Counted from the first letter of the stretch, positions 10,864 to 42,500 are shown. The stretch is DNA of 64,000 bases from Limnothrix sp. CACIAM 69d (GCA_001913845.2 MKGP02000026.1:1-64000); one strand, 5' to 3'. Numbers and translations are program-made. The notes: a model not told the origin generated them from the letters alone.

Positions 10864-13800
10864 CTAGGCACTGGTCGTAATCAGCACTTCACCCCGCAGC
10901 ATTCGTCGCGCCGCATCCAGGAGGGCTTCCTCCAAGTAGGGCTTGGTAAAGTAACCCTTTGCACCCAGGTCAACGGCCATTTTCCGGTGCTTGTCGGCTC
11001 CCCGAGAGGTGAGCATGGCCACGGGCAACTCACAGAGGGTTTCTTCCGTTTGCAATCGCTGCAAGAGCTGCAAACCGTCCATGCGCGGCATTTCGATATC
11101 GCAGAACACCAGATCGCAGGGCAAACCCGATCGCAGTTTTTCCCAGGCTTCTTGACCGTCGCGGGCCTGCTCCACCTGATAACCCGCTTTTTGGAAGGTC
11201 ATCTTCAGCAGCTCGCGCACCGTGATCGAGTCGTCCACAATCAACACCATCGGATCCTTCTGTTCCGTCGGTGGCTCCACGATGTGGATGTTGTCGGATT
11301 CCCAACGGCCGCTGACCGTATCGCGCCGGATGCGGCCCTTCGCCAGGTCAATTAGCTCCAGCACGTCGGCGATCGGCATGACGCGCCCATCACCCAACAC
11401 GGTCATCCCAGCAATGCCCAAGGGCTTGGGCACGGGGCCTTCCGGTTGCTTAATGACGATTTCTTGCTCGCCCAGTACCCGATCGACCTCGATCGCGATG
11501 AACTCACCGGCACTGCGCAACACCACGATCGCCAGGGAATCATCCTCCTGGTTGCCGCCGTAGATGTTGCCGCGACTCAGGTGGCGATTGTATTTCAGCA
11601 ACTCCGTGAGGGGATGCAGCGTCAAAATTCGATCGCGCCAGGCAATGCAGCGACGGCCTTCCTTATCGGTCTGCACATCCTCCGGGTGAATATCGGGCGG
11701 CGTGTCTTCCACCCCATCCATCGGAAACGCGATCGTGGCGTGATCGCTCAAACACCGCAGCGCCTTACAAATACTCAGGTTCAGGGGCAAGCGAATGGTG
11801 AAGGTCGTTCCCCGTCCCAATTCTGAATCAATGCTGATGCTGCCGCGCAATTCCTGAATCTTGCGCATCACCACATCCATGCCCACGCCACGACCGCCAA
11901 ACTCATCGGCCTGGTCTTTGGTGCTGAAGCCCGGCAGGAACAGCATTTCATAGATTTCCTGACGCACCATGTTGCGAGCCTGGTTGGGGTCAATCAAGCC
12001 CTTCTCGATCGCCTTTTGTTTCACCCGCTCCGTATTAATCCCCGCCCCATCATCGGACAGGGAAATCACCGTTTGGTTACCTTGATAAAAGGCCCGAATG
12101 GTTAGCTTGCCGGTGGGGGGTTTACCTGCCGCCACCCGTGCTTCAGGCGTTTCAATGCCATGCACCAGGGCGTTATTAATCATGTGGGTAATTGGACTCG
12201 ATAGCTCCTGGGAGAGGAACTCATCGATCGCCGTTTCCTTACCCTCAATGATCAAATCCACATCCTTGCCGCAGCGCTCCGACACCGATCGCACCGCCCG
12301 GGGCAACCGCTCCACCGTGCGCGCAAAGGTCACCATGCGCGACTTATTCAAGTTCTCTTGAATCTGGGTGGTGATTTGCCGCAGGTTCCGCACCAATTGA
12401 TCGGTTTGTTCCACCACGAAATCAATGTCTGAGGCAGACTCCCGCACCCGCACAATCAACTCAATGATTTCTTGAGATTGGGTATGGAAGGGGGTGAAGC
12501 GATCCAGCTCCAATTCTCCCAGGCCCATCCGGCCGCCGTGGGTGTCAGACTCACCGCTGTGATGGGTGTCGGAATGCCCGCCGCCACTACCGCCGCGCCG
12601 CCCCGACAGCAAGGACATTTCCAGGAGCGATCGCTCGTAAAAGTCCTGCATCCGTTGCCCCACATCGCCCAACTGCTGCACCCGTTGGGTCAAGTTTTCC
12701 AAGGACTGGCGCAGGCGCTCTTGGCCCTGTTCCATGCTGTTGCGGTTCACCACCATTTCCCCAACCAGGTTGTTGAGGTTGTCCAAGTTCCGCACCGGCA
12801 CTTTGATGATTTGTTCGGCCCGTAAATTGCGGCTGGCGGCCGCTTCCATTTCGCGCTGACCGTTCGCCACGGGAGTTGGGGCCGATCGAGCTGGCGACAC
12901 CGCAGGGCTGGGGCCCGTCGCTGGGGCAGCCTTGGCCGGGGCTTCCAGTATCTCCACCAAAGCGTCAAAGTCTAGATCCAGGCCGCCGGTACTGCCAGCG
13001 GGCGCAGGGGTTGTGGCTGGGGCCGCAGCATCGCCAAATAGATCCTCAAAGCGATCGGGGCTGTTGGTGGCGGCCGTCGTTGACAGATTCAGAGTCTTCA
13101 GCAGATTATCCAGCTCATCCACGTCGCTGGCCGCTCGGCTCGCCGGGGCCGGCGCAGCGGAACCCTCCAGGGCATTGAGCAGGTCATCGAGGGTGCTGTC
13201 ACCGGCCGGCGCAGATCCCAGCTCCTGATTCAGCAGTTGATCCAGATCGCCCAAATCACCCAAACCGCTGAGACCGTCCATCATCGGCTCACTGGTGGGG
13301 GGCACACCCAAGAACGCATCCAAATCTTCTAAATCCGAACCAGCCAGCGGATCAACCGCATCAACGGGTAATCCTAAGTCACCCAAATTACCCAAATCAC
13401 CCAAAGTCCCCAAGTCTCCTAAGCCACTCAAGTCGTTTAGATCACCCAAGCCCCCGAAGTCAAAGTCATCCGCGCGATCGGCACTGGCTGCCTCCTGTGG
13501 CTCACTGAGATCCAAGGGGCTGCTCCAGTCGGCTGTTCCCATCAAGAAGTCAGGGGCTTCGCCATCAGCGATGGTTTCCAGGCTTGTCGCTTCCCCAAAG
13601 TCCAAATCGTCCAAGGCGGCCCAATCGTCATCCAACGCCGGAGCAGGGGCCGACGCGCCAGCGGGGGCCAGCAGGGCATCTAAATCCGAGAGAATTGGCG
13701 GCTCGGTGAAGTTTTCCGGAGTCCAGAGGGCGGCTGCATCATCGTTGGCCCCTGCCAGATCTGCTTCGGCCTCGGCCAGGTCTAGATCTTCTTCCAGGCC

Positions 13801-16332
13801 GCTCAGATCGGTCGTGCGCCGATCGGAGAACAGATCTTCCAAACCTTCGGAGCTGAGGGTGGATCGATCGATCCGAATGGCTTTGGCTCCATTCACGTCG
13901 TAACTGAGGTCAGCCGCCTCATAGACCGGCTCGGCCGGCTCCGCAAAGAGCGGCTCGTCCAGCAGGGTATCAATGTCTTGGATAAAGTTCTCGGCGGTTG
14001 AGGTTTCCGCATCCGGCAACATCACATCGGGCGACTCCACCAACAGATCCGCAAAGGGATCCACCTCCTCCAACGGATTGGCCTGCAAAATGCCATCCAA
14101 ATCGAAATGATCGAGGGCAGGCAAGTCGTCCAGGGACGGATCCACCAGGGCCGGCATGGCGGTGGTCGGCGCGAGATCCTCATCGGTCAGATCAACGGCG
14201 CTGAAGTCACTCAGATTATCGAAATCATCGGTCAGATCAACGGCGCTGAAGTCACTCAGATTATTGAAATCGTTGAAGTCCAAGTCAGGGGCGGAGTCCG
14301 ACCAATGATCGTCTAGGTCGATCGCGGCCAAGTCGGGCAACTCCCCTGGCGACATCTCCCCGAGATCCAACCCATCCCCCCAACGATCTGTGGTGGCTTC
14401 TGGGGCCGCTGCGGCTGCCACATCGAGATCGGCCAGGCCTGCATGGCCAAGGTTTAGGTCTGCATGGGCCAAATCTACGTTGGCCAAATCTGCAGCCCAA
14501 GCGTCCAGATCAGCCATGTCATCGATCGCCCCGATCTCCGGTAACGAATCGAGGGTCAGCTCTGGAGGCGCAATCTCTCCCGTCAGGCCATCAATCAGAT
14601 CCAATCCCAGGTCGGAGCCGAAATTGCCATCGAGATCATCCAAATTCCCCAGCGCCGGATCAATCACCGTCGTCAAATCCGGGTCATCATCTCCCAATTT
14701 TTGGAGTTCATGGGGGATCGGTTCGATCGCCGTGGGATTGCTGATCAGCTCCGTGGAGAAGGTCAAGTCGCTGCTAGGCACCACCCGTAGGCCAGTGGGT
14801 TCCTCTTCCGCATCCAAGCCCAGATCAAACAGGTCATCCGAGGCGATCGGGTTGACTTCCGTGGCCGTTTCCACCGCATCCAGCAGCGCATCCAGATCAT
14901 CATCACCAATGAGATCGATCGCCCCCGTGCCTTGACCCGCATTCACCATCAGTCCATTGCCGCTCGATGGCTCGTCCCCAAAGGACAACAGATCATCGAT
15001 GGACTCTAACCCCATCTCCGACACCGAATCGGTGGTGTCAATCTCATCCAGCAGATCGTAGCCCAGTGCATCCAGGGAGCTGGTCAAGGCATCAGCATCC
15101 GCTGACGATTCCTCATGGGTAAACATCAAGTCCGACAGGTCATAGTCTGCGGCCGGGTTCAGGGGCAAACCAACCGCCGACTCCGCACTTTGTCCCGGTA
15201 GATCGGCTTCCAAATCCTGGGAGCTTTGGCGAAACAAGTCCGCCAACACGTCCAATTCGGCCACGCCCACTTCCGGCCCCGTGCCCGGTTCTGCCCTGGG
15301 CCGTTCCACCCGACTGGTTTGGGTGGGTGATGGGGTAGGGCTTAAATCCAGCTCATCCATCCGAGTTACGACGGTGTTGCTGGTTTCCGTAAACCAATCT
15401 TGCTCAAAATCATCGCCCTGGCTGTGGGTGATGTCGGTAATTTCGGGCGCTAATTCGTCGTTGAGTAAGTCGTCGAAGTCAAACAGATCTGCATCTAGGC
15501 TGCTGGGGCTGGGGGCAACCGGCTGGGGAACCAAAGCCCGTAACTCACTGCCCAAGCAGATTTCCTGGCTGCGATCGTCCAGAACCAAATCTTGAGCCTG
15601 CTTCAGGTCGCGAATGATCGTGGGCGCTAGGGTTTTGTAGGAGTTGGTGGGGCAACCGATCGCCTGGCTGGCCGCATCCAGTAGCTCCACCCAGCCAGTA
15701 ATGCGGCTGCTTTTGCCCAAGTCAGACAAGCGCTGACACATCCATTGGAGCTGCGCGCGTTGCTGAGGACTGTCCCCTTGGCGAAACAGATCCAACATTT
15801 CCCGCAATAGTTGGGGCACCTGTTGCTGAAAAACCTGATGGGTGCGATCGGCCGCCCAGGCATCCTCACTTTGGGATGAGAGGGTACGATGCAGCACGCT
15901 GGGCATATCCACTTCATGGACGGCGAGGCCCAAACGTTCCGCCAGGGCGTTAAACGCCGGCTCCGAATCCTGAAGCACGCGGTTGCCCACTTCGGTGGTC
16001 AGGCCAAAGGGGCCCTGGAGATGGTCGAGCAGTTCCACCAGGGTGTCAAAGGCCCGCAGAAACAGGCTTTCCAATTCCCGATCGATATGGATCGGATGTT
16101 CTTTCAGGACTTTGAAAAAGTCTTCAATGCGGTGGGCGGCCTGTTGGATGCTCTCGAACTCCAACATGCCCGCGCCCCCCTTGATCGAGTGGGCCGCCCG
16201 AAAGACCTCATCCATTAGCTCTGGGTCTTCGATCGTCCCCTGCAAGTTCATGAGGCCTTGCTCGATGGTTGTGAGGTAGTCCTTAGCTTCCTCAATGAAA
16301 TAACCGACGATGCGTTGCTGTTGATCTTGCAT
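10864..16332 (-). CDS. pilL: CheA-type hybrid histidine kinase of the T4P taxis system (PilL/HmpE-like)
   Basis: This kinase phosphorylates the pathway's response regulators in response to receptor state. Domains in the 1822 residues: Hpt (about 1-110, phospho-His H48 in AAHSIKGG); a helical region to about 260; a roughly 900-residue acidic low-complexity region (about 265-1165); a CheA dimerisation segment from about 1170; HATPase with HMINNALVHGIE, DDGAGI and GGRGVGMD (about 1380-1500); CheW (about 1525-1660); and a C-terminal receiver with D1745. Hpt-kinase-CheW-receiver is the order of cyanobacterial PilL/TaxAY proteins; the low-complexity insert is far longer than I expect. GGAGG precedes the ATG. 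It is the last gene of the pilG-H-I-J-L series, 247 bp after pilJ. Confidence 0.93.
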   Translation of the reverse strand: MQDQQQRIVGYFIEEAKDYLTTIEQGLMNLQGTIEDPELMDEVFRAAHSIKGGAGMLEFESIQQAAHRIEDFFKVLKEHPIHIDRELESLFLRAFDTLVELLDHLQGPFGLTTEVGNRVLQDSEPAFNALAERLGLAVHEVDMPSVLHRTLSSQSEDAWAADRTHQVFQQQVPQLLREMLDLFRQGDSPQQRAQLQWMCQRLSDLGKSSRITGWVELLDAASQAIGCPTNSYKTLAPTIIRDLKQAQDLVLDDRSQEICLGSELRALVPQPVAPSPSSLDADLFDFDDLLNDELAPEITDITHSQGDDFEQDWFTETSNTVVTRMDELDLSPTPSPTQTSRVERPRAEPGTGPEVGVAELDVLADLFRQSSQDLEADLPGQSAESAVGLPLNPAADYDLSDLMFTHEESSADADALTSSLDALGYDLLDEIDTTDSVSEMGLESIDDLLSFGDEPSSGNGLMVNAGQGTGAIDLIGDDDLDALLDAVETATEVNPIASDDLFDLGLDAEEEPTGLRVVPSSDLTFSTELISNPTAIEPIPHELQKLGDDDPDLTTVIDPALGNLDDLDGNFGSDLGLDLIDGLTGEIAPPELTLDSLPEIGAIDDMADLDAWAADLANVDLAHADLNLGHAGLADLDVAAAAAPEATTDRWGDGLDLGEMSPGELPDLAAIDLDDHWSDSAPDLDFNDFNNLSDFSAVDLTDDFDNLSDFSAVDLTDEDLAPTTAMPALVDPSLDDLPALDHFDLDGILQANPLEEVDPFADLLVESPDVMLPDAETSTAENFIQDIDTLLDEPLFAEPAEPVYEAADLSYDVNGAKAIRIDRSTLSSEGLEDLFSDRRTTDLSGLEEDLDLAEAEADLAGANDDAAALWTPENFTEPPILSDLDALLAPAGASAPAPALDDDWAALDDLDFGEATSLETIADGEAPDFLMGTADWSSPLDLSEPQEAASADRADDFDFGGLGDLNDLSGLGDLGTLGDLGNLGDLGLPVDAVDPLAGSDLEDLDAFLGVPPTSEPMMDGLSGLGDLGDLDQLLNQELGSAPAGDSTLDDLLNALEGSAAPAPASRAASDVDELDNLLKTLNLSTTAATNSPDRFEDLFGDAAAPATTPAPAGSTGGLDLDFDALVEILEAPAKAAPATGPSPAVSPARSAPTPVANGQREMEAAASRNLRAEQIIKVPVRNLDNLNNLVGEMVVNRNSMEQGQERLRQSLENLTQRVQQLGDVGQRMQDFYERSLLEMSLLSGRRGGSGGGHSDTHHSGESDTHGGRMGLGELELDRFTPFHTQSQEIIELIVRVRESASDIDFVVEQTDQLVRNLRQITTQIQENLNKSRMVTFARTVERLPRAVRSVSERCGKDVDLIIEGKETAIDEFLSQELSSPITHMINNALVHGIETPEARVAAGKPPTGKLTIRAFYQGNQTVISLSDDGAGINTERVKQKAIEKGLIDPNQARNMVRQEIYEMLFLPGFSTKDQADEFGGRGVGMDVVMRKIQELRGSISIDSELGRGTTFTIRLPLNLSICKALRCLSDHATIAFPMDGVEDTPPDIHPEDVQTDKEGRRCIAWRDRILTLHPLTELLKYNRHLSRGNIYGGNQEDDSLAIVVLRSAGEFIAIEVDRVLGEQEIVIKQPEGPVPKPLGIAGMTVLGDGRVMPIADVLELIDLAKGRIRRDTVSGRWESDNIHIVEPPTEQKDPMVLIVDDSITVRELLKMTFQKAGYQVEQARDGQEAWEKLRSGLPCDLVFCDIEMPRMDGLQLLQRLQTEETLCELPVAMLTSRGADKHRKMAVDLGAKGYFTKPYLEEALLDAARRMLRGEVLITTSA
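12830..15530 (-). repeat. Acidic Asp/Leu/Gly-rich coding repeats in PilL
   Basis: About 900 residues are dominated by D, L, A, G, S and E, with many short repeats such as LGDLGNLGDLG (DNA about 13374-13450, period 9) and ADLANVDLAHADL. The composition predicts an intrinsically disordered, strongly acidic region between the Hpt and kinase domains. Confidence 0.85.
14182..14271 (-). repeat. 45-bp in-frame tandem duplication in pilL
   Basis: Positions 14182-14226 and 14227-14271 are identical except for one base, and duplicate 15 residues containing LSDFSAVDLTD. The near identity shows a recent expansion of the low-complexity region. Confidence 0.9.
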
Positions 16333-16579: not shown

Positions 16580-19500
16580 CTACTGATTGCTGCTGTCCAC
16601 CCGGAAACGCTCCACGGATGAGAGCAGATCGCCCGCCACTCGCACCAGAATTTGCAGGGACTCAGACACCCGCTGCGATTCTTGGGAGGTATCTTGGGCG
16701 GTCTTTTCGACCGATCGCACCACTTGGGCCACGGAGCGGGAGGTGTCCGTTTGCTCCACGGTGTCCGCCGTAATCGATCGCACCAGCACATCAATCCGGT
16801 TCGACACTTGGATGATGTCATCGAGTGCGCGCTTGGCCTGTTCCGCCAGCTTCGTTCCTTCCAGCACCTGCTGTGTGCCGTCTTCCATCGCTCGCATCAC
16901 CAAGTTGGTTTCACTTTGGATTTGCATCACGATTTTTTCAATTTCCTTGGAAGCCTTGGCGGCGCGATCGGCCAACTGTCGCACTTCATCCGCCACGATG
17001 GCAAAGCCCTTGCCCGCTTCGCCAGCCCTGGCCGCTTCGATACTGGCGTTGAGGGCGAGCAGGTTGGTACGGGAGGCGATCGTGGCAATCAAGGCCACAA
17101 TCTTGGAAATTTCCTGGGTAGATTCCGCCAGTCGTTTGACCTTGCGGGCGGTTTCGGCCACCGTTTCCCGAATTTGCAAAATCCCGGCCACGGTGCGTTC
17201 CACCGCTTCGCCCCCCTTCAAAGCGGTCGCAGAGGCGGAACGGGCCACTTCCTCGGCTTCGCGAGCACTTTCGGCCACCCGCTGAATCGAGTCGGTCATC
17301 ACCTGCACGGAGTTGAGGGTGACGGCCAGCTCTTCCGCCTGCCGCAGTGCATCGGAAGAGAGCGATCGGGCAAAGGACTCGTTTTCCGAGGAGCGCTTGT
17401 TCACCTGCAAAGCGGCCGTTTTCACCTGCTGCACAATTTCTCGCAGGTTTTGAATGGTCAGGTTGAACGAGTCGGCCACGGCACCCAACACGTCGGCGGT
17501 CACTTCCGCCTGTACGGTTAGGTCGCCTCGGGCAGCCCCTTCCACGTCGTCTAGCAGCCGAATCACTTGCCGCTGGAGATCTTCGCGAGCCTGCTCCTGC
17601 TCTTGGGCTTTGCGCTGGGCCTCGCCCATGGTGCTCAAAATCACCCGGGTCATTTGGTTAAAGGAGTTGGCCAGTTCCCCAAATTCATCGTCCCCAAAAA
17701 CCCGAGCCGTGGCATGGAGACTGCCTTGGCAAACGGAATCCAACTGGGCTTGCAAATCACCCGTGGCTCGCTCCACATGCTGGGCCGTGCGACGACCCAA
17801 GAACAGGGCCACCCCGCCTCCGGTGGCTCCCGCCAACAGGGAGGAAACCAGGCCGATGGTGCGAATGTCGCCCATCAGTTGCGGACTGATGCCCCGATCG
17901 CGCACATGGGTCATGGTCAAGTGCGTGGTGCCCGCCACGGCCAGGAATGACACAATCCCAGCCATCACCGCCGTAACGGTTTGTTTGGTTGTCAGGCGGG
18001 CATTGTCGAAGGAAGCCAGCCAACCATCTTCGGATGGGGTGACCGGTTCGGCGGCGCGGCTTTCGGGCTGGTCAAAACTCAGCAGTTCTTCGTTGTTGGA
18101 ACTGGTGGCGATGTTGAAGACTTCGTTATCCCCCCCGACGAAGTTGGAGAGGGGTTCTCCCATCACGCCCAAGGAGGGTTCCCCAAGGGAAAATTCGTCG
18201 CCACCGTCCGATCGCGGCACGAATTCCGAGGAGGTGTTGGTCAAGCTGAAGTCCGGTAGGCTGCCGAGGTCGTCGAACTCATCGAAGTCATCCATGAAGT
18301 CGCTGGCGGCGGCGGCTCCGTCATCCGCGATCGCGGACAGGGCCCCGGAGGCCGGATCATCCACCGATCGAGCAGGGCTAGTGAAAGCCATGCCCGGGGC
18401 CCCGTTGATCATATCGAGGGGGAACGCATCATCATCGGACTCCGGCTCCATAACCGGCGGTTCATTGAAGATGCCAAAATCGCCTACCTCATTGTCTTCC
18501 GGCTCGATCGACCTTAAGGCCGGCTCCGGTTGCGCATCCCAGGAGCCGCCCCCAAAAGCCGTGGCACTCAAGTCTCCAGGGCTGAACTCATTGAACTCAT
18601 CCGGGTTGAACTCTGCCCCGTTGAAGTTCCCACTGCCAAATTCAGCCAAGTCTTGGGCTGTGGCTCCCTGAAGGGTACTGGGCCCCGCCATCATAAACAG
18701 GGTTTCTTCCACCTCATCATCGATTGGGAAAGATCCCTCGATCGAGGCCGCAAAAGGCAGCTCGATTCTGGCCGCTGGCTCCTTGGCCGCTGGTTCCTGC
18801 GTGCCGGCCGGCGGGGGCATGAAGAGTGTGCGATCGTCGTCGGCGCTGTCCCCCACAAACACGCCAAAGGGTTCATCAAAAGCATTCGCGCCCGCCAGCG
18901 GCCCAGCAGCAGCCGGAGCCGCTGGCTCTGAGAAATCACCAAAGCCGTCCCCAAACGCCTCGGAGCCAAAGGGATTTTCGGCCCCTGCGGCAACCTCAGC
19001 GCCACCAAAATCAGTGCCACCAAAATCAAAGTCAGCCTCAGCGGCCACGGGTTGACTCGCTAGCCCGTCCGCATCAAACACGCCAAATCCAAAATCTTCA
19101 GGGGCGGATGATTCAGAGGCTGCCGGTGCTGCCCAGTCTTCGGCAAAGGCCGCCGCGGCCGGAGCGGCTGGGGCTTCAAGGTCAAAGCCCTCAAAGTCAC
19201 CGAAGCCATCGACCGCCAAGTCATTGGTCTCCGTCGAATCGGCAAAATTAGGCGGCTCAAAGCTGGCTTCAAAGGGCGCTGCGGGAGATGCTGCCCCAAA
19301 ATCACCAAAATCCTCAATGGGATCAGCATCCAAGTCCCCAAAAACCGGCGCTTCCGAGGTGGACGCGGCAAAGTCTTCTGAGCCAGCCTCTCCAAAGCCC
19401 ACCGCCTCATCAAAGCCGGCCGATGCGCCGAAGTCGAGGTCAGCCAACGCAGCGCCAAATTGATCTGCACCAAATTGATCACCATCGGCCGTGTCACCGG

Positions 19501-20590
19501 GCAAATCACCCGCGAAGTCATCGGCCCCAAAGGCTGATGCGGCCAGGGGATCCGCCCCACTGGTTTCCCCCAAATTGACTTGATCTAAATCAAAGGACTG
19601 ATCACCAAAATCCATGCTGGCCCCAAAAGCATCATCGCTGGTGGGCGATGCCAATGCCGCAAAGGGATCCGCTGCGAAGCGATCGGGCAGCCCCAAGTCT
19701 GGTGCTGGTGAGGGTGTGGATCCTTCGCTCCCCCCAAAAGGATCGATCAAGAAGGGATCCGCTGCCGGATCTGAGGGGGTGGCTGGTTCCGGAGACCCCA
19801 AGGCAGCAAAGGGATCATCACTCCCCCCTAGGTCAGCGCCTAGGGCGATCGCCCCGGGGTCTGCACCCAAGTCCATTCCCGAGTCCGTGCCAAAGTCAAA
19901 GTTATCAAAACTGTTGAGGTCATTGGGATCGCTGCCCGTGGATCCATCCCCGAGATCCAGCGCGCCCAAATTGCCTAAATCGGCGCTCTCAAAATCCGCA
20001 TCTTCAAAGTTGACACTACCGAAGTCTGCACTGCCAAAGTCCGCGCCGCCAAACTCACCGCTCTCTAGGTCAGCATTGGCAAAGTCCGCGTCACTTTCCA
20101 GGTCGCCCAGGGCTTCGGCCATGGTGCTGTTGCCGGCCAGTAGGCCCGTTTCCGTGCCCTGGGGGTCACTCATCAATTCATCGAAATTGAAGTCCCCATC
20201 ATCAATCAACGGTTGATCGGCTAGATGGGTGTTGCCGCCATTGGTAGTGGTTTCCTGATCACCGAAGTCGAATTGGTCAAAGTTGGGAGTTTCGTCATAA
20301 CCATTACCGGCGCTCAGGGCTTGACTGGTGGCGGCTAACCCTGAATGGGCGTATTCCACAAAGGTGGGGTCGCTGGTCAGGCTAAGCACGGACTGGTATT
20401 CCACCTGGGCCGTTTCGTATTGGTTTAGGCCATAGCAGTAGATGTGGCCTCGGAGTAAGCGAACGCTGGGATCATCGGGATAGGCCTGGGCAAGCCGATC
20501 GATCGCGGCGGCAGCTTCGGGGTAATTACCGCTGGTGTAGGCATCATTGGCCCGCTGGTAATCCTGGTTGTAATCCGTGCTGGATGCCAT
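16580..20590 (-). CDS. pilJ: Methyl-accepting chemotaxis protein of the T4P taxis system (PilJ/HmpD-like)
   Basis: This receptor controls PilL. Order in the 1336 residues: a TPR-like helical N-terminus (about 1-95); a 770-residue acidic, Phe/Asp/Gly/Ala-rich region (about 100-865); two membrane helices (about 868-888 and 905-925) with only a short loop between; HAMP-type segments; and a signalling coiled coil with the conserved tip [21 protein letters not shown] (about 1190). There is no periplasmic ligand-binding domain and no GAF domain with a chromophore cysteine, so it is not a PixJ-type photoreceptor. Input probably comes through the large cytoplasmic N-terminus, as inferred. GGAG lies upstream of the ATG. 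Confidence 0.93.
18010..20290 (-). repeat. Acidic Phe/Asp/Gly-rich coding repeats in PilJ
   Basis: About 770 residues with repeated DFG, FGDF, ADFGS and PFxAL-type fragments and alanine/proline-rich spacers. The region is predicted disordered and strongly acidic, with regularly spaced phenylalanines. Confidence 0.85.
19970..20089 (-). repeat. Run of eight pentapeptide repeats inside PilJ
   Basis: Residues 168-207 read as eight consecutive A(D/N)(F/L)xx units: [40 protein letters not shown]. This matches the pentapeptide-repeat consensus, which folds as a right-handed beta helix in longer arrays; eight units make only about two coils. Confidence 0.7.
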
Positions 20591-20730: not shown

Positions 20731-21267
20731 CTATCCTGCGGATTGACCCAGGCGGTTAGACCGCAAAATGGCCACATGATCCAGTAGTTGCAGAATTCGA
20801 TTGTTACTCAATCGCCACTCTCCGCGCAAAAATTCCCCGATCGGATCATTCACGCTACTCAAGGCTTCCACATTGTCCGGCTTGAGCCAATACATACCCG
20901 CCACCCGGGCCACCGCCAAGCCAAGCATCATATCCCCTTCCTCGATCGCAATCACCGGCACCTCCGCCCGATCGGTATTCAGCGGGATGGTTTCCCCCAA
21001 AAACTGCCCCAGATCCACCACCCAAATCACCTGCCCCCGAATATTCAAGGTTCCTAACAACAGGGGAGACACGTTCGGCACAGGCGTGATTCGATCGGGA
21101 GAAGGTTCACTCACCTCGCGGATAATGACCGCTGGCAATGCCAATTCCCGTCCCGAGGGTAGGTAAAACCGCAGGTGCATCTCACCTTCAGGATTTTCTA
21201 GCTCCTGAAGTTCCGGCGACTGATCATCCACACCTCCGCCGGCCAAAAAATCTGGACTTCCGACCAC
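20731..21267 (-). CDS. pilI: CheW-like adaptor (PilI)
   Basis: A 178-residue CheW-domain adaptor that couples the PilJ receptor to the PilL kinase. The CheW core begins near residue 30 ([16 protein letters not shown]) and includes [20 protein letters not shown], the family's most recognisable block. GTG 21267 is chosen because AGAGGAAAG lies a few bases upstream. It precedes pilJ by 140 bp on the same strand. The first 29 residues are acidic and probably disordered. Confidence 0.9.
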
Positions 21268-21592: not shown

Positions 21593-21958
21593 TCAGCCGC
21601 GTAATAATTGCTTCACTGTTCCCACCAACTCTTGAGGCTGAAAGGGCTTAGCAATATAGGCATCTGCGCCTTGTCTCAGGCCCCAGTAGCGATCGAACTC
21701 TTCCCCTTTCGAGGAACACATCACCACTGGCACATCCTGCGTTGTGGGATCCGACTTCAAGCGACGACAAACTTCGTAGCCATTCATGCGGGGCATCACA
21801 ATATCCAAAACGACCAGATCTGGACGCTGCTTTTGCAAACTTTCCAGCGCCTCAACACCATCGGATGCCATGTTGACGGTCAGCCCACTGCCCTGCAAGA
21901 GCTCGCCGATCATCTCTCGCTGGGCGACGCTGTCTTCGACAACTAACACTACACTCAT
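21593..21958 (-). CDS. pilH: CheY-like response regulator (PilH)
   Basis: A 121-residue single-domain receiver. The phospho-acceptor is D52 in VVLDIVMP, the acidic pocket is VVEDS, and the conserved lysine is in AKPF. With no output domain it should act by protein contact, either on the pilus motor machinery or as a phosphate sink. It corresponds by position and length to PilH/TaxY/HmpB of cyanobacterial T4P taxis loci. It is separated from pilG by an unusually long 800-bp spacer, so it may have its own promoter. Confidence 0.92.
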   Translation of the reverse strand: MSVVLVVEDSVAQREMIGELLQGSGLTVNMASDGVEALESLQKQRPDLVVLDIVMPRMNGYEVCRRLKSDPTTQDVPVVMCSSKGEEFDRYWGLRQGADAYIAKPFQPQELVGTVKQLLRG

Positions 21959-22758: not shown

Positions 22759-23988
22759 TTATGATGTTACGGGGAGAGATTCCGCCGTAGACAACGCTGG
22801 ATCGCTTATTTCTTCCTCAGGGGCTGGCTCCAGACGACCAGAGCCGATATATCGCTCAATTAAGGCTTTTAATTCCTGGCGTTTGAAGGGCTTGGTCAGG
22901 TAGTCAGTTGCACCGGCCAGGCGGGCTTGGGTGCGATCGAGAAACCCTTCCCGTCCCGTGATCATGATGATGGGCACATGCCGAAACAATCGGGTTTGTC
23001 GCAACATGGCGCATAGCTCATAGCCATCCAGATGGGGCATGGCAATATCACAGAGGATCAAATCTGGCCGCAGCTCAAACACCTGACTGAGCGCTTCTAG
23101 GGCACTGAGAAAGCCCACCACGTCATAGCCCAACAACTGCAACCCCTGCTCGATCGCGCGGCAAACGGCTGGGCTGTCTTCAATGCAAACGATTCTCGGT
23201 GCTCGCGGGCTGGGATCCTGAACGGTCATGACCTGATGCCAGCGCGATCGGGCGGCCGAATGCTCCAAAGGCGGCTCGATCAGTTGCACCAACCCCTCCT
23301 GAATGTAGGGATAAAGCGCCTGGGCCACGGCCAGGAGCGGCCGCTGGCGATAGCGAGCAATTTGGCGCAGAGTGATTGATCCGGTGGCCCATTCGCTAAA
23401 GGTTTGGAGGGTTTGGGCCGGCAACACCTCCCGCAATCGCTGAACATCCGTCAGCACGGGGCACAGATCTGGCGATTGCACGTAGGGATAGAGTTGTTTC
23501 CAATCTTGCAATTCCTGGGCCACTTGGGAAATCAGCGGGCTAACGGCCAAGCTGGTTAAGTGGGGCGCGATCGCCTCGCCCATATTAAAAATGAACCGCC
23601 CCTCATGCACCGTTAGCAAATCAAACAGGGCCTCATGCACCATTGCCTGGAGGATGTTGCGGCCCTGTACCGGTTCCAGTTGATGGGTTTCCAGCAATGT
23701 CCAAAGATATCCATATTCCGGCTCGCTGATGGAAGCCATTTTGGAAACCGACAGCTCATCAATGGCCGTTTCCAAGGCATAGCGATGGAGATAATCCCGA
23801 AGGCGGGTTGTGCCCCCTTCCCCGGAGGTGCAGTAAACGATCGCCCCTTGGCGGAAAAAGACAAACCAACTGCGGCGATCGCCCGGGTGAGCGCCTTCAA
23901 CTTCTAAATACAGTTCACCCGTGCGCTGGCCTAACTCAATCAGGTGCAGGAGGCTGCGGATATCAATCTCGCTGAGCTGTCCTTGCAT
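22759..23988 (-). CDS. pilG: PATAN-domain response regulator (PilG/TaxP/PatA type)
   Basis: A 409-residue regulator with an N-terminal PATAN/DUF4388 region (about 1-240, opening MQGQLSEIDIRSLLHLIELG) and a C-terminal receiver (about 265-385). The phospho-acceptor is the Asp in LILCDIAMP, the acidic pocket is CIEDS and the lysine is in TKPF. PATAN regulators bind and steer the T4P motor or chemosensory partners in cyanobacteria. It is the first gene of the pil series and diverges from hmpF across an 838-bp spacer. Confidence 0.92.
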   Translation of the reverse strand: MQGQLSEIDIRSLLHLIELGQRTGELYLEVEGAHPGDRRSWFVFFRQGAIVYCTSGEGGTTRLRDYLHRYALETAIDELSVSKMASISEPEYGYLWTLLETHQLEPVQGRNILQAMVHEALFDLLTVHEGRFIFNMGEAIAPHLTSLAVSPLISQVAQELQDWKQLYPYVQSPDLCPVLTDVQRLREVLPAQTLQTFSEWATGSITLRQIARYRQRPLLAVAQALYPYIQEGLVQLIEPPLEHSAARSRWHQVMTVQDPSPRAPRIVCIEDSPAVCRAIEQGLQLLGYDVVGFLSALEALSQVFELRPDLILCDIAMPHLDGYELCAMLRQTRLFRHVPIIMITGREGFLDRTQARLAGATDYLTKPFKRQELKALIERYIGSGRLEPAPEEEISDPALSTAESLPVTS

Positions 23989-24826: not shown

Positions 24827-26557
24827 GTGCTGTATCTTGCAGAAGTCGTCCAAAAACGCGGCTTGATGGGATCAAAGTCAGAATTAAAGCTGCTGGCCTG
24901 TCAAAAGGGAGAGCAGTGGAGCGCAATTACCAATGAGGATCCCATCGCTTCAGACGATGCCAGCAATTACAAAGACGGGGCATTAGTGCTGGTGGATGCG
25001 ATCGGGTCAGGGGCCGATCGCAAAGTCAAGAATATTCAAGAAGGGGCCCGGCAGATTGTCAGCCTGCTGCAAAGCTATTCCCGCCAACAGGAAAAGAACA
25101 AGAGCCAGGAAGAAGAAATTCAGCAATGGATGGAGTCCCTGACTTACCAAAGCCAGGAGCTGAACCGGCGGGAACAGGAACTCGATGAGCGGCGCGAAAA
25201 ACTGGAGCAACTGGAACAGGAGTTGCGGCAGCTCGATCGCCAGCGCCAAGAGGTGCAACAGGCCCGGGAATCGGCCGATCGCCTCAATCAGGAAGTGCAA
25301 CACAAGCGCCAGGAAATTGAGCAGGCTCAACATGCCCTGCGGGCCCAACAGGAGCAACTGAACCAAGAGCGCCTGGCGATGCAGCAGCAGTTAGCGCAGT
25401 CGGCGGGTCTCGATGCCCAACAGGCGGCTCAATTGCAACATTTGCTGCAACAGGCGGCTTCTTCGGTGGTGGCCATGGACTATTTGCAGTCGGCGGTGGA
25501 AACTTGCCTGCAAATTACGGCGGCCCAGGAAAGCCTGCTCAACCACGCCCCAACGGCGGAACCAACCCTTTCCCCGGAGGTGCGGGATTGGATTACGTCG
25601 GAAACCCAGACCCTGGCGGCGGCTTGGCAGGATTGGTATACCCAGCGGGATGATCTGGATCGGGCCCGGGCCGAGTGGCGGGCCCAACAAACGGCGCTCG
25701 AACTCCATCAACAGCAGCTTTCGGCCGTTGAAGGGCAACTGGCCACCCAACGCAGCTTGCAGACCCTGTTGGAGCAAGCGGCCAATGGGGACGGCCACAG
25801 CGATGCAGCCCAACGGGTCGATCGAGCAGCCTTGGAAGCCATGCCGATCGGGGAGTTGCAAGAGCTGACGGCCCAGTTGCAGCGGGACTTGGAAAAGCTA
25901 TCGCGGCTAGTGAGTGACGAGGAAGAGGAGCTGAGTGCCAAGCGCCAGGCGATCGAGGAACTGCAAGGCCAAATCAACAGCGCCAATGAGTACGATCGCA
26001 TTCAGCTAGAAGCCAACCTGGCCGATGAGCGCGACGGTTGCCAGATGCTGGAAGAAACCCTGGTGGGCCAACGGCGCAACCTGCAAGAGCGGGAAGAGGT
26101 ACTCCATGCCCACAAAACGGTGCTGAACAAGCGCCAAGGGTTGGCAACGCCCCGCACGGATGGCAGTGTGGATCTGTCGCCGCTGCTCGATCGGGTGACG
26201 CAAGATCTTCAAGCCCTGGAGGAATTGCAGTCCCAATTGCGCGATCGGATTTCCACCTTGGAATCCACGGTGCAGGAGGCGGAGATGACCGTGAACCAGC
26301 GCCATGGGGATGTGCAAGCTCAGTTGCAAGTCCTGCAAGATCGGGAGCGCGAATTGCAAAGCAAGCAAATTGAGGCCATCACCCAGGGCAGCCAAGGGGG
26401 CGATACCCTGACTCAGCCCATGTCTGAGCAGGTTTCCGGTCTGCGGCAACACCTAGAAGCCCTATTGACCAACCTCACCCAGGCGACGGACACCACCCAA
26501 GCCCAGCAGGCGACGATCGGGCAAATGCAGCAAATTGTTGCTTCCCTCAGCAAGTAG
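24827..26557 (+). CDS. hmpF: HmpF-like T4P motility/taxis coiled-coil protein
   Basis: A 576-residue protein opening MLYLAEVVQKRG with a short globular N-terminus (about 1-75; SELKLLACQKGEQWSAI), the pattern I know from cyanobacterial HmpF. HmpF proteins localise with the T4P machinery and are needed for pilus-driven motility and phototaxis. From about residue 85 the protein is nearly all Gln/Glu/Leu-rich coiled coil, interrupted near 230-270 and 400-430. The start is GTG 24827, preceded by GAGGGGAAGGG. Its divergent position next to pilG fits a partner role in the taxis complex. Confidence 0.85.
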   Translation: MLYLAEVVQKRGLMGSKSELKLLACQKGEQWSAITNEDPIASDDASNYKDGALVLVDAIGSGADRKVKNIQEGARQIVSLLQSYSRQQEKNKSQEEEIQQWMESLTYQSQELNRREQELDERREKLEQLEQELRQLDRQRQEVQQARESADRLNQEVQHKRQEIEQAQHALRAQQEQLNQERLAMQQQLAQSAGLDAQQAAQLQHLLQQAASSVVAMDYLQSAVETCLQITAAQESLLNHAPTAEPTLSPEVRDWITSETQTLAAAWQDWYTQRDDLDRARAEWRAQQTALELHQQQLSAVEGQLATQRSLQTLLEQAANGDGHSDAAQRVDRAALEAMPIGELQELTAQLQRDLEKLSRLVSDEEEELSAKRQAIEELQGQINSANEYDRIQLEANLADERDGCQMLEETLVGQRRNLQEREEVLHAHKTVLNKRQGLATPRTDGSVDLSPLLDRVTQDLQALEELQSQLRDRISTLESTVQEAEMTVNQRHGDVQAQLQVLQDRERELQSKQIEAITQGSQGGDTLTQPMSEQVSGLRQHLEALLTNLTQATDTTQAQQATIGQMQQIVASLSK

Positions 26558-26560
26558 CTG

Positions 26561-26590
26561 TCAGCAAACGGCGCTTTAGGCAAACGGCAT
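26561..26590 (-). repeat. Imperfect duplication at a stop codon
   Basis: TCAG-CAAACGGC (26561-26572) and TTAGGCAAACGGC (26576-26588) are near copies 15 bp apart. The second contains the HEAT gene's stop (26576-26578, minus). The first would supply a second in-frame stop. Confidence 0.5.
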
Positions 26591-27898
26591 GGTTGCTCCG
26601 TCTTGGGCCGATTGGGCGATCGCCTGCCATTCCTGAAGGCCCTGGCGGGCGGTGACGGTTGCCTGCTGGGCAGCCGCCTGATCAATCCAAGCCGCGAGCC
26701 GATCGGCTCCCTGTTGGGGGTCGATTTGCCGCAGTGCCGCCAACACTTGCAAGGCCAGAATTGGGGACTGGTCGGGCCGATCACACAACCGGGGCAGCAG
26801 TCGATCGAACGCAGCCGCCACTCGCAAATTACCCAGGGCTTCAATTAAGGCCCCCTGAACTGCCCAGTCGGTGAAGGGAGCCAGGGGCCGATCGAGCCAA
26901 TCGAGCAGCAGATTAGCCACCCGGCGTTGATAGGTTTGATCGGAACTGTGATGCTGGGCGATCGCCACAATCCCCCCCAAGAATAGATCTGTTTCACCTT
27001 GGGGCAACCGCTCTCCCAAGGCCGCCAAGGCCGAGGGTAATCCCATTTGAGCCAACAACCGCACCACCAACTCCGGTGGTAACTGTCGCCGCTCCCAGGC
27101 CGCCACCAAGGCCGCCCGCGCCGGTTCATGGCCCCAGTGGCTGAGGGCCAAGGCGGCCGCCTCCGCCACCGAGTCCACCGGATCGCTCAACAGTTGGGTG
27201 AGGGTTTGGGCGATGGTGTCTTGGGCCACTGGGCTGTGGCCCCAACGCTTGGCCCCCAAGGCCGTCACCGCCACCAAGCGCACCGTGGCCTCCGAGTCTT
27301 GCGTTCCTTGCAGCAGGTGGGGTAACAAGGCGGGATGGGGCAAGCTGCCCAGGGCTTCCAAGGCGGCCCGTCGCAGGGGAGGCTGAGGAGAAGCGGCCCC
27401 AATCAGGAGGCCATGAATTGCGTCGGGGTGGTCAATTTGGGCGATCGCCTTGATCACCAAGGGCCCCCAATTCGGATCCGTGAGGTAAGGGTTCAGACAA
27501 TCCAGGGCCACCGTTCGCAATGGGGGCGATCGCTCTGCCAATTTGCCCAAGGCCTCGATCGCCGCCGCCTGCACGGAGGGATCCGGCGCGATCGACAGCA
27601 GATTCACCAGCGATTGCACCGCCGCTGGGTCGTCAAACTCTCCCAAGGCCCTGGCCACAAACCAGCATTGCTCTAAGTCCAGCGCTTCATCGGTCAGCAA
27701 CGCCACCAGGGCCGGAATCGCAGGCTTGCCAATGGCTTTGAGCTGCCCGATCGCCTGCCAACGTTCATAAAAATCCCCATCCGCCAAAGTCGCCAGCGCC
27801 TGATTTAACGCTGGATCGCTCACTGGCTCCAGCACCTGATCGAGCGGTTGACCGGGCAGTTGCCCCAACTCCTGCGCTTGATGGTGATTCAATGGCAT
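26576..27898 (-). CDS. HEAT-repeat protein
   Basis: About 440 residues made almost entirely of HEAT-type helical pairs from about residue 40 to 420, recognisable by repeated A(L/V)xALGxL and DPxxVxxAAxxAL patterns. Such proteins are scaffolds or belong to bilin-lyase/phycobilisome-related groups; no lyase-specific feature is clear, so no function is assigned. ATG 27898 is preferred over TTG 27904. It converges with hmpF, with 18 bp between the stop codons. Confidence 0.8.
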   Translation of the reverse strand: MPLNHHQAQELGQLPGQPLDQVLEPVSDPALNQALATLADGDFYERWQAIGQLKAIGKPAIPALVALLTDEALDLEQCWFVARALGEFDDPAAVQSLVNLLSIAPDPSVQAAAIEALGKLAERSPPLRTVALDCLNPYLTDPNWGPLVIKAIAQIDHPDAIHGLLIGAASPQPPLRRAALEALGSLPHPALLPHLLQGTQDSEATVRLVAVTALGAKRWGHSPVAQDTIAQTLTQLLSDPVDSVAEAAALALSHWGHEPARAALVAAWERRQLPPELVVRLLAQMGLPSALAALGERLPQGETDLFLGGIVAIAQHHSSDQTYQRRVANLLLDWLDRPLAPFTDWAVQGALIEALGNLRVAAAFDRLLPRLCDRPDQSPILALQVLAALRQIDPQQGADRLAAWIDQAAAQQATVTARQGLQEWQAIAQSAQDGATMPFA

Positions 27899-27904
27899 AG
27901 CCAA

Positions 27905-39560: not shown

Positions 39561-42500
39561 ATGTCTCCACTGAATGCTTCTTCAATCAATTTTTTTCCTG
39601 AAGTTCCTGGCTATAGAATTGTTGAACAAATTCACCGTGGGTCACGCACATCCGTTTATCGCGCCATCCAGCACCATAGTCAGCGAATAGTAATTCTAAA
39701 AGCGCTGCATTCAAGCTATCCCACCTTTAGCGAATTAATTCAATTTCGAAATCAATACGCCATCACTCAAAATCTTGATGTTCCAGGCATTGTGCAGCCT
39801 TTAGATTTGGAGCCGATCGGCAATAGCTATGCTCTGATCATGGAAGACTGTGGCAGCATTTCTCTTCAGAAATACTGTCAGCAACAACAACTCAGCTTAG
39901 GTGATGTGCTAACCATTGCCCTGCAACTGACCACTATTTTGCATAACCTGCATCAGCAGCGAGTCATTCATAAAGATATTAAGCCAGCCAATATTCTAAT
40001 TCATCCAGAATCTAAACAGGTCAAACTTATTGACTTTAGCATCGCCTCTTTACTACCTAAAGAGACACAAGAAATCCAAAATCCCAACATCCTCGAAGGA
40101 ACCCTTGCTTATCTTGCACCGGAGCAAACCGGACGCATGAACCGGGGCATCGACTACCGCGCCGACTTCTACGCCTTGGGCGTGACGTTATATCAACTAC
40201 TCAGTGGCCAGTTGCCATTTGAGTCAGAGGATCCAATGGAGCTGGTGCATTGTCATATTGCTAAAGTGCCCGCACCCGTTGAGCAAATCAATTCAGCCAT
40301 TCCAGCCATTGTGGGGGCGATCGTTTCTAAATTGATTGCCAAAAATGCTGAAGATCGCTATCAAAGCGCCTTGGGACTAAAACATGATTTACAACAATGC
40401 TTGAACCAGTGGCAGGACACAGGCACGGTTGCTGATTTTGAATTGGGTCAACGGGATTTAAGCGATCGCTTCCTCATTCTCGAGAAACTCTATGGCCGCG
40501 AAGCTGAGGTTCAGGCACTCCTGAAAGCTTTCGATCGGGTTGCTCAAGGCAGTTCAGAGCTGATGCTAGTGGCGGGATTTTCTGGAATTGGCAAGACCGC
40601 TGTTGTCAACGAAGTTCACAAGCCAATTACTCAGAAAAAAGGCTATTTCATTAAGGGAAAATTTGATCAGTTCAATCGCAATATTCCCCTGCTGGCATTT
40701 GTGCAGGCCTTACGCGACTTGATGGGGCAGCTCCTGTCGGAGTCCGATGCGCAATTGGCCCAATGGAAGACCAATATCCTGGAAGCCGTGGGCAGCAACG
40801 GTCAAGTTCTGATCGATCTCATTCCTGAGCTGGAACAAGTCATTGGGCCGCAGCCACCCGCTCCAGAGCTTTCTGGCGAAGCCGCTCAAAATCGTTTTAA
40901 CCGTCTATTGCAAAACTTCATTCAAGTTTTTGCCAAGTCAGATCATCCCCTTGTCATTTTTATCGATGACTTGCAATGGGCTGATTCCACTTCTTTGAAT
41001 GTGATGCAAAACTTGTTGACGGAAGCTCGCTCCCATGCACAATGTCTCCTGGTTTTGGGAGCCTATCGAGATAATGAAGTCTTTCCTGGTCATCCCTTTT
41101 TAATTACAGTAAAAGCCTTAGAAAGTGCCCATGTTCCCCTTGCAACCCTCATTCTCGGCCCTTTGAGTGCGGAGAGCCTCAATCAGTTAATTGCTGATAC
41201 TTTCCGGGCCACAAATAGCAAAGTGCAGCCCTTAACCCATCTGGTTATGCAAAAAACCCAGGGCAACCCATTCTTTGCGACCCAATTCCTCAAAGCACTA
41301 CACCAAGACAGTCTCATTACCTTCGATCGGGAGGCGGGTCACTGGCAATGTGACTTAGTGCAGGTACAGGATGCGGCCCTAACTGATGACGTGGTGGAGT
41401 TCATGGCTTTGCAGTTACAAAAACTGCCCATGGCTACCCAGGAACAGCTTAAATTTGCAGCCTGTGTTGGGGCCAGATTCGACCTCAAAACCTTGGCGAT
41501 TGTGTCAGAACAAAACGAAATTCAAGCGGCTTCAGCCCTATGGTCAGCGCTGCAAGAGGGGCTGATTCTACCGGAGGGCAAAATTTATAAGTTCTATGCC
41601 GACCTTGATTCATCCCAGGTTGAACCATCCTGGGGCGAAGAGATTTCTGGGCAAATTCAATACCGCTTTTTCCATGACCGGGTGCAACAAGCTGCCTATT
41701 CACTGATTCCGGAAGATCAAAAACAGGTCACTCATCTGAAGATGGGGCAGTTACTCCAAAGCCGTTTGTCAGCAGCCGAGCGCGAGGAAAAACTGTTTGA
41801 TATTGTCGGTCATCTGAATTTAGGTCATGGATTATTAAGTCAGCAAGCTGAACGGGAGTCATTGATTCGACTGAATCTTGCTGCAATTGAAAAGGCTAAA
41901 AAGGCAACCGCCTACGGTGTAGCCCAAGACCTGGTAACGATCGGGCTGGAATTACTTTCAGAAGAGCCTTGGCAAAACCAGTATGAGTTGAGCTTAAAGC
42001 TCCATCAAATGGCGGCAGATGTGGCCTGTTTAAAGGCTGATTTTGAGGAGGCGATCGCCCAAGTTCAACAAGTTCTAGATCAGGCCCAGACGATCTTGGA
42101 TAAAGTGCCTGTTTACATGGTGCAAGTCAGGGTTTTGACAGCTCAGGATCGGTTGGCAGAGACGCTCGCCATTGCGGCCCAAGCCATCACTCAATTAGGG
42201 ATTGAGTTCCCCTCGAACATTACATCAAATATCAGCGCACAAGCTGTGCAAAGGGCAGAGATTGAATTAGAAGGGAAAGTGATTGAGGATTTGATCGACT
42301 TGCCCATCATGGATGACCCAACAATCATTGCCGCCATGGAATTGTTGGGCATGATCATGCCAGCAGTCTTTCTTGCCAACCCCACATTGCTGCCCTTTGT
42401 TTGCGCAAAAATTGTGAGCTTATCACTGCAGTCTGGCAATGCACCTGTTTCGAGTGTTGGCTATGCTACCTACGGCTTGGTTTTAGCCACGGGGTTGGGT

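Follow-up and report, generated by a model that had tools for sequence, protein, structure and literature searches.

The stretch of DNA analysed here (the window) comprises 64,000 nucleotides of Limnothrix sp. CACIAM 69d (GCA_001913845.2, MKGP02000026.1:1-64000). It carries a gene for a 1336-aa chemoreceptor of the PilJ/HmpD type at 16580..20590 on the minus strand, which was assigned from its open reading frame and its place in a cluster of the hmpF|hmpABCDE type. All features of this gene given below lie on the same strand. The protein is a methyl-accepting chemotaxis protein (MCP); a HAMP domain (17636..17797; PF00672, 27.2 bits, cut-off 25) and an MCP signalling domain (16703..17251; PF00015, 140.9 bits, E 5e-41) both score above the Pfam cut-off. 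After the HAMP domain, residues 1006–1050 (approximately 17441–17575) are almost invariant among cyanobacteria, with a column identity of 0.98–1.0, at least that of the signalling hairpin tip. Hydropathy places two transmembrane (TM) helices at residues ~873–891 (17918..17974) and ~913–931 (17798..17854), within hydrophobic cores at 869–894 and 911–932; AlphaFold2 models the helices at 866–898 and 903–955. The loop between them (17855..17917) is approximately 20 residues long and contains no sensor domain, and the median gap among orthologues is 21 residues. The N-terminus is a tetratricopeptide repeat (TPR) domain (residues 1–92, 20315..20590; helices at 3–98 in the AlphaFold2 model). Between it and the first TM helix lies an acidic, Phe-rich linker, predicted to be disordered (residues 93–870, 17981..20314). 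The original prediction, made from the sequence alone, had described a region of about 770 residues at 18010–20290, rich in D, F, G, A and E, that replaces a periplasmic sensor, and an inter-helix loop too short to hold one. Both descriptions are borne out (the region corresponds to residues ~101–860), except that the region sits behind the TPR domain (residues 1–98) and does not form the N-terminus. No hydrophobic or signal-like stretch precedes the first TM helix (hydropathy maximum 0.77). The signalling domain of an MCP must be cytoplasmic, and since two TM helices separate it from the TPR domain and linker, established MCP topology leads us to infer that these are cytoplasmic as well.

A query with the signalling domain matched PilJ-like sequences in 167 of the 195 cyanobacterial genomes; of those with no match, many belong to a small-genome family (f2). 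From 170 loci, some of which derive from metagenome-assembled genomes, we took 142 distinct complete orthologues out of a set that covers approximately 100 genera. All 142 have the TPR domain, the acidic linker and the two TM helices. As all the complete orthologues examined retain the linker region and it is predicted to be disordered, we found neither of the things that would speak against the original prediction, namely relatives that lack the region or a folded domain in its place. None of the other MCPs recovered from the genome of the window (L002, L003, L009, L010) has a comparable acidic region; they reach no more than 7 net acids per 100 residues. Linker length in the orthologues ranges from 185 to 915 aa, with a median of 384 and a 95th percentile of 577. 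The linker of the window protein (780 aa) ranks fourth, and the five longest all belong to its own clade (support 1.0). The estimated ancestral linker of this clade is ~810 aa compared with ~431 aa at the parent node, as obtained by simple averaging on one approximate tree. Judged from these sequences, the ~780-aa length is a clade-specific doubling, approximately, of a general cyanobacterial linker. As the ~770 aa result from the expansion, in one clade, of a region with half this length on average, the length itself is unlikely to be the essential feature. DNA repeats within the linker are short, with 2–3 units only, and tandem duplication was therefore rejected as the origin of its length. 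One orthologue (L102, a 474-aa frame) seemed to lack its N-terminal half. A natural deletion was rejected, as the start of the TPR domain is found in a second frame of 523 aa, upstream and on the same strand; the gene is split over two frames, likely by a frameshift or assembly error.

The linker of the window protein is composed of D (13.8%), E (7.8%), F (9.9%), G (12.2%) and A (15.6%), with only 0.3% K and 1.0% R, and has a net charge of −159 over its ~780 residues. On the Uversky charge–hydropathy scale it falls on the disordered side (−0.053; orthologue median −0.135), whereas the signalling domain falls on the folded side (+0.159). The AlphaFold2 model, calculated for residues 1–960 with 60 orthologues, gave a predicted local distance difference test score (pLDDT) of 33–50 for residues 100–850, again a prediction of disorder. 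A pentapeptide-repeat match (PF00805, residues 168–205, 21.1 bits, cut-off 20.2) was rejected as a fold; the model has a pLDDT of ~33–41 and no strands there, and the match is therefore compositional. Short fragments recur more often than expected from 1000 shuffles, of which 0 or 1 reached the observed value: DFG occurs 12 times (1.3 expected), FG 28 times (9.5), FGDF three times (0.1) and F-x4-F 18 times (7.4). The DFG and FGDF fragments that the original prediction had picked out are in this sense real. They are compositional, though, and not tandem copies, nor are they a hallmark of the family: the mean is 0.94 DFG per orthologue, and FG is weakly enriched family-wide (3.9 against 2.5 expected). 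Phe residues are spaced more evenly than chance in the window protein (5 of 1000 shuffles were equally even), and across orthologues the median z is about −1.1.

Evenly spaced aromatic residues in an acidic background had also been taken to suggest clustering or condensate-like assembly. On that explanation, the Phe residues are stickers through which receptors self-associate at poles or septa. The enrichment, even spacing and preferential conservation of Phe are what it expects, as is the excess of FG dipeptides in the window linker. The weak FG enrichment across the family does not fit it, and the net charge of −159 with so little Lys and Arg would oppose homotypic association. The Hmp proteins of the cluster are all acidic themselves (pI 4.05–5.25), so there is no counter-charge and no polycation in the cluster for condensation. 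MCP arrays, moreover, already cluster through their signalling tips. The polar protein PopZ of Caulobacter is a useful comparison: it too has an acidic disordered linker of conserved composition between client-binding and assembly elements (PMC9512792). The PopZ linker is Pro-rich, has a conserved length of 78 aa, and trades length off against charge (PMC9512792). The PilJ linkers are Phe-rich and vary widely in length, and we claim no homology. A compensation of length by charge like that of PopZ was rejected, as it is absent among the orthologues; longer linkers are not less charged. Homotypic condensation is weakened by these points, and we consider a condensate driver unlikely.

Most of the linker shows a column identity of 0.02–0.2 in the alignment of the 142 orthologues. 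Against this background, an island of ~30 residues (764–795; 18206..18301) stands out with identities of ~0.77 and 0.62 in two consecutive blocks of 15 residues. A profile of the island recovered it in 121 of the 142 orthologues. In 12 genomes searched with this profile, every strong match (E 8.5e-12 or lower) was to PilJ, with a single one in each genome, and the remaining matches were marginal (E 0.06–1). The island starts at a median of 119 residues from the linker end by profile. From its FDDLG motif to the linker end we measured 104 ± 10 aa, compared with 301 ± 105 aa for the rest of the linker (n=98), and the two lengths are uncorrelated (rho 0.12, p 0.23, n=98). The island is also the only part of the window-protein linker with raised AlphaFold2 confidence (~50–58). 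The model of one orthologue (L173) shows a helix there, at residues 292–303, with a pLDDT of ~47 over the block. With the pattern F-L--F--F--L and acidic surroundings such a helix would be amphipathic, and we regard the island as a candidate docking helix; as the confidence of the model is low, the helix is at most a propensity.

Further motifs flank the island on both sides. Two [DN]PF motifs lie in the outer part of the linker, at residues 283–285 (19736..19744; P284 in 92% and F285 in 90% of orthologues) and 308–310 (19661..19669; P309 in 92%, F310 in 94%). Pairs of [DN]PF no more than 25 residues apart occur in 93 of 142 linkers, compared with 0.8 in shuffles. A DxTLFM motif is present in two copies, DDRTLFMP (residues 585–592, 18815..18838; T588 in 92%) and VEETLFMM (residues 627–634, 18689..18712). 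Its Thr and Phe columns are 92% and 77% conserved, and TLFM is found in 73 of 142 linkers and in none of the shuffles. These motif counts depend on the alignment, and those from regular expressions and profiles agree in outline. As a speculation, the 92% Thr in an acidic setting, in two copies, might mark a site of phosphorylation or of the FHA type. Close to the membrane are Phe motifs at residues 823–841 (18068..18124; consensus E.F...LPxFTQ; F825 in 87%, F839 in 90%) and a juxtamembrane motif at residues 847–870 (17981..18052; consensus EPxVxVEQGxLAxLENAPLxxK; N863 in 92%, K869 in 96%). The conserved parts lie outside the DFG-rich tracts.

Comparison of close pairs shows purifying selection on the linker. 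In all the pairs compared, the 105 residues nearest the membrane change more slowly than the distal linker, and the synonymous rate (dS) of this proximal part is normal or high, which indicates selection on the protein rather than on the DNA. Conservation of the island at the DNA level, as an RNA element or antisense gene, was rejected on the same grounds, as dS there is not low. The ratio of nonsynonymous to synonymous rates (dN/dS) in the distal linker is ~0.1–0.2 in most close pairs and 0.27 in one. The best-kept distal residues are Asp (0.92) and Phe (0.91), compared with 0.77 for Ser, and the least kept are Ala (0.71), Val (0.71) and Asn (0.64); these figures rest on five ungapped pairs, and Phe is by nature a slowly changing residue. 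A neutral, low-complexity expansion with no function could have produced the clade-specific doubling and would leave the distal linker, as we observe, the least conserved part of the protein. The low dN/dS even there, the maintained composition with its Asp and Phe, and the conservation of motifs across the phylum make such an origin very improbable.

The neighbouring genes agree with an Hmp cluster. Upstream of pilJ on the minus strand are genes for a CheW of the HmpC/PilI type (20731..21267; PF01584), a CheY of the HmpB/PilH type (21593..21958; PF00072) and a response regulator of the HmpA/PilG type with a DUF4388 N-terminus (22759..23988; PF14332 and PF00072). A divergently transcribed gene (24827..26557, plus strand) encodes an HmpF-like coiled-coil protein, a candidate client. 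It has no Pfam match, and its label comes from its position and its heptad-rich, Gln/Glu-rich sequence, not from a profile. The order hmpF|hmpA-B-C-D-E has been tabulated for Nostoc and Leptolyngbya (PMC10581220). The domains of the neighbours match this order and orientation (type 1/tax3), with HmpF matched by position only. Gene order and receptor class are the same as in the type 1 chemotaxis-like systems of HmpD from N. punctiforme and PilJ (Slr1044, TaxD3) from Synechocystis. Orthologues from Nostoc linckia (L187) and Cylindrospermum (L185) share the TPR domain, an acidic linker of ~420 aa and the two TM helices; compared with such relatives, the linker of the window protein has almost double the length and an unusual abundance of FG and DFG. 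Searches of the openly accessible literature found no description of a disordered region, TPR domain or motifs in cyanobacterial PilJ/HmpD. Next to the hmpF-like gene is one for a HEAT-repeat protein (26576–27904, minus strand; PF13646, E 2e-34). Elsewhere in the window, 39561–44984 (plus strand) encodes an 1807-aa hybrid with Ser/Thr kinase, AAA ATPase, GAF and histidine-kinase ATPase domains in a single chain.

The partner kinase, a CheA of the HmpE/PilL type (10864..16332, minus strand, 1822 aa), has an acidic linker of its own, of ~930 aa (D 16%, L 15%). A motif common to the two linkers was rejected, as none of the PilJ motifs was found in that of CheA. Residues ~351–370 of CheA form a separate conserved island, GPEVGxAELNSLADLFEGE, amid a poorly conserved stretch, and from its sequence this is possibly another docking site. 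The length of CheA ahead of its catalytic part correlates with that of the PilJ linker (rho 0.58, n=43, relatedness ignored). Two acidic linkers whose lengths vary together might suggest a passive entropic spacer or polyelectrolyte brush. Length and charge alone would then matter, holding the TPR domain off the membrane, setting receptor spacing, or sensing ionic strength or crowding. That most of the PilJ linker keeps its composition and not its sequence, and that its length varies from 185 to 915 aa, is in keeping with this. A spacer leaves unexplained the residue-level conservation of the island, the [DN]PF pairs and DxTLFM, as well as the fixed distance from island to membrane, and we find a pure spacer unlikely.

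The TPR domain at the free end is modelled with a pLDDT of ~97 (residues 1–98), and its column identity is 0.62–0.82 per 15-residue block. Pfam TPR_16 matches residues 11–49 (E 2e-4, under the curated cut-off). A Foldseek search with the model found TPR folds in the Protein Data Bank with TM-scores of up to 0.88 on the target. These are TPRs of a generic, peptide-binding kind, all with E of 0.001 or above, and they are not diagnostic. The domain is acidic (pI 4.3), and electrostatic pairing with the linker was rejected for this reason. The TPR head could itself be the sensor, with the linker as a mere tether, or the short-loop TM bundle could sense membrane energetics. The TPR domain is conserved and is there even when the linker is only ~80 aa long (L195), and carbonyl cyanide m-chlorophenylhydrazone (CCCP) disrupts the polar localisation of HmpF (PMC9239167), which would suit the two variants. 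Approximately 780 disordered residues, however, cannot pass a conformational change mechanically from the head to the HAMP domain. Conservation of the TM helices and loop is comparatively low for this protein (0.29–0.58), and the island is again left unexplained. We judge a sensor at either place improbable.

The explanation we favour, and to which we give about an even chance of being right, is that the non-signalling half of PilJ/HmpD is a cytoplasmic client-docking arm built into the receptor. A long, disordered and polyanionic spacer, anchored at the first TM helix, would carry the TPR head at its far end. Negative charge and scattered Phe residues may keep the linker open and its short motifs exposed. 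The island, 100–120 residues before the membrane, would turn into an amphipathic acidic helix upon binding. Together with the outer [DN]PF and DxTLFM motifs it would provide sites for cytoplasmic pilus or Hmp partners, and the TPR head would bind another. Occupancy of these sites might position the receptor array at the pilus machinery, alter the load on the TM–HAMP relay, or do both, and so feed CheA. The poorly conserved stretch between the motifs would act as an adjustable spacer, approximately doubled in this lineage. Cluster membership and published roles point to HmpF, the DUF4388/PATAN regulator HmpA and the pilus motors as candidate partners. The original prediction, which had offered an input or docking role as one possibility, had missed the residue-level motifs that support such a role, and its interpretation is overall partly supported; the function we propose is read from the sequences. 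Several points weigh against a docking arm. In 21 of 142 orthologues the island has been lost or cannot be recognised, and in L195, which branches deepest among the orthologues examined, the linker is only ~80 aa long, though the TPR domain is still present; no motif is therefore universally required. The AlphaFold2 confidence of the island is low, and the TPR match falls below the Pfam cut-off. The orthologues are related, so the conservation percentages overstate the independent evidence.

A docking arm would have a parallel in the FimV/HubP hubs of proteobacteria, which partner pili and chemotaxis clusters and position the latter (PMC12918733). These proteins are single polypeptides with a membrane anchor, a TPR domain at the free end and, in the cytoplasm, a long acidic region that varies in length and is for the most part unstructured (PMC12918733). 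Deletion of that TPR domain spares soft-agar spreading, and the authors therefore credit placement to the acidic or periplasmic part (PMC12918733). PilJ shares with them a long cytoplasmic region that is acidic, disordered and variable in length, a resemblance in kind and not homology. Unlike FimV/HubP, it has its TPR domain at the N-terminus, in reversed order, lacks a LysM or other periplasmic domain (no Pfam match to LysM in PilJ), and is fused to an MCP module. The PilJ TPR domain does not match TIGR03504, the C-terminal FimV TPR, and nothing in the genome scored over its cut-off. FimV_Cterm was over its cut-off in none of 59 cyanobacterial genomes. Weak matches in seven of the 59 are unremarkable TPRs, and a FimV homologue was rejected. 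The PilJ/HmpD layout thus resembles that of FimV/HubP in reverse, and the protein is not a member of that family. PilJ of the Pseudomonas aeruginosa Pil-Chp system is likewise a type IV pilus MCP with HAMP and signalling domains, and it senses via periplasmic PilJ domains. The window protein, in contrast, has no Pfam match to the periplasmic PilJ domain, and its loop has only ~20 residues.

The Hmp/Tax3 MCPs lack the photosensor of PixJ, and their input signal is still open in the literature (PMC5812497; PMC12288463). The Hmp system controls the position of HmpF and pilus activity (PMC12288463). We tentatively suggest, as a possibility that we think has more against it than for it, that PilJ/HmpD is driven from inside. 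Its input would be the occupancy of docking motifs on the arm by pilus and Hmp proteins, read via the TM helices and the HAMP domain. Receptor and polar hub would then be one molecule in cyanobacteria, compared with two, PilJ and FimV/HubP, in proteobacteria. Risser et al. (2014) reportedly saw that Hmp proteins, when tagged in N. punctiforme, form rings close to the septa. Were this the case, a linker approximately half as long as that of the window protein would be enough for polar placement.

These results give a lead, open to testing, on how a cyanobacterial motility receptor may get its signal, with an inner arm instead of an external sensor. They narrow the likely interaction sites to an island of ~30 residues, two short motifs and a TPR domain of ~100 residues, each of which can be mutated or serve as bait in genetically tractable strains. 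Throughout cyanobacteria, the non-signalling half of this receptor would be cytoplasmic.

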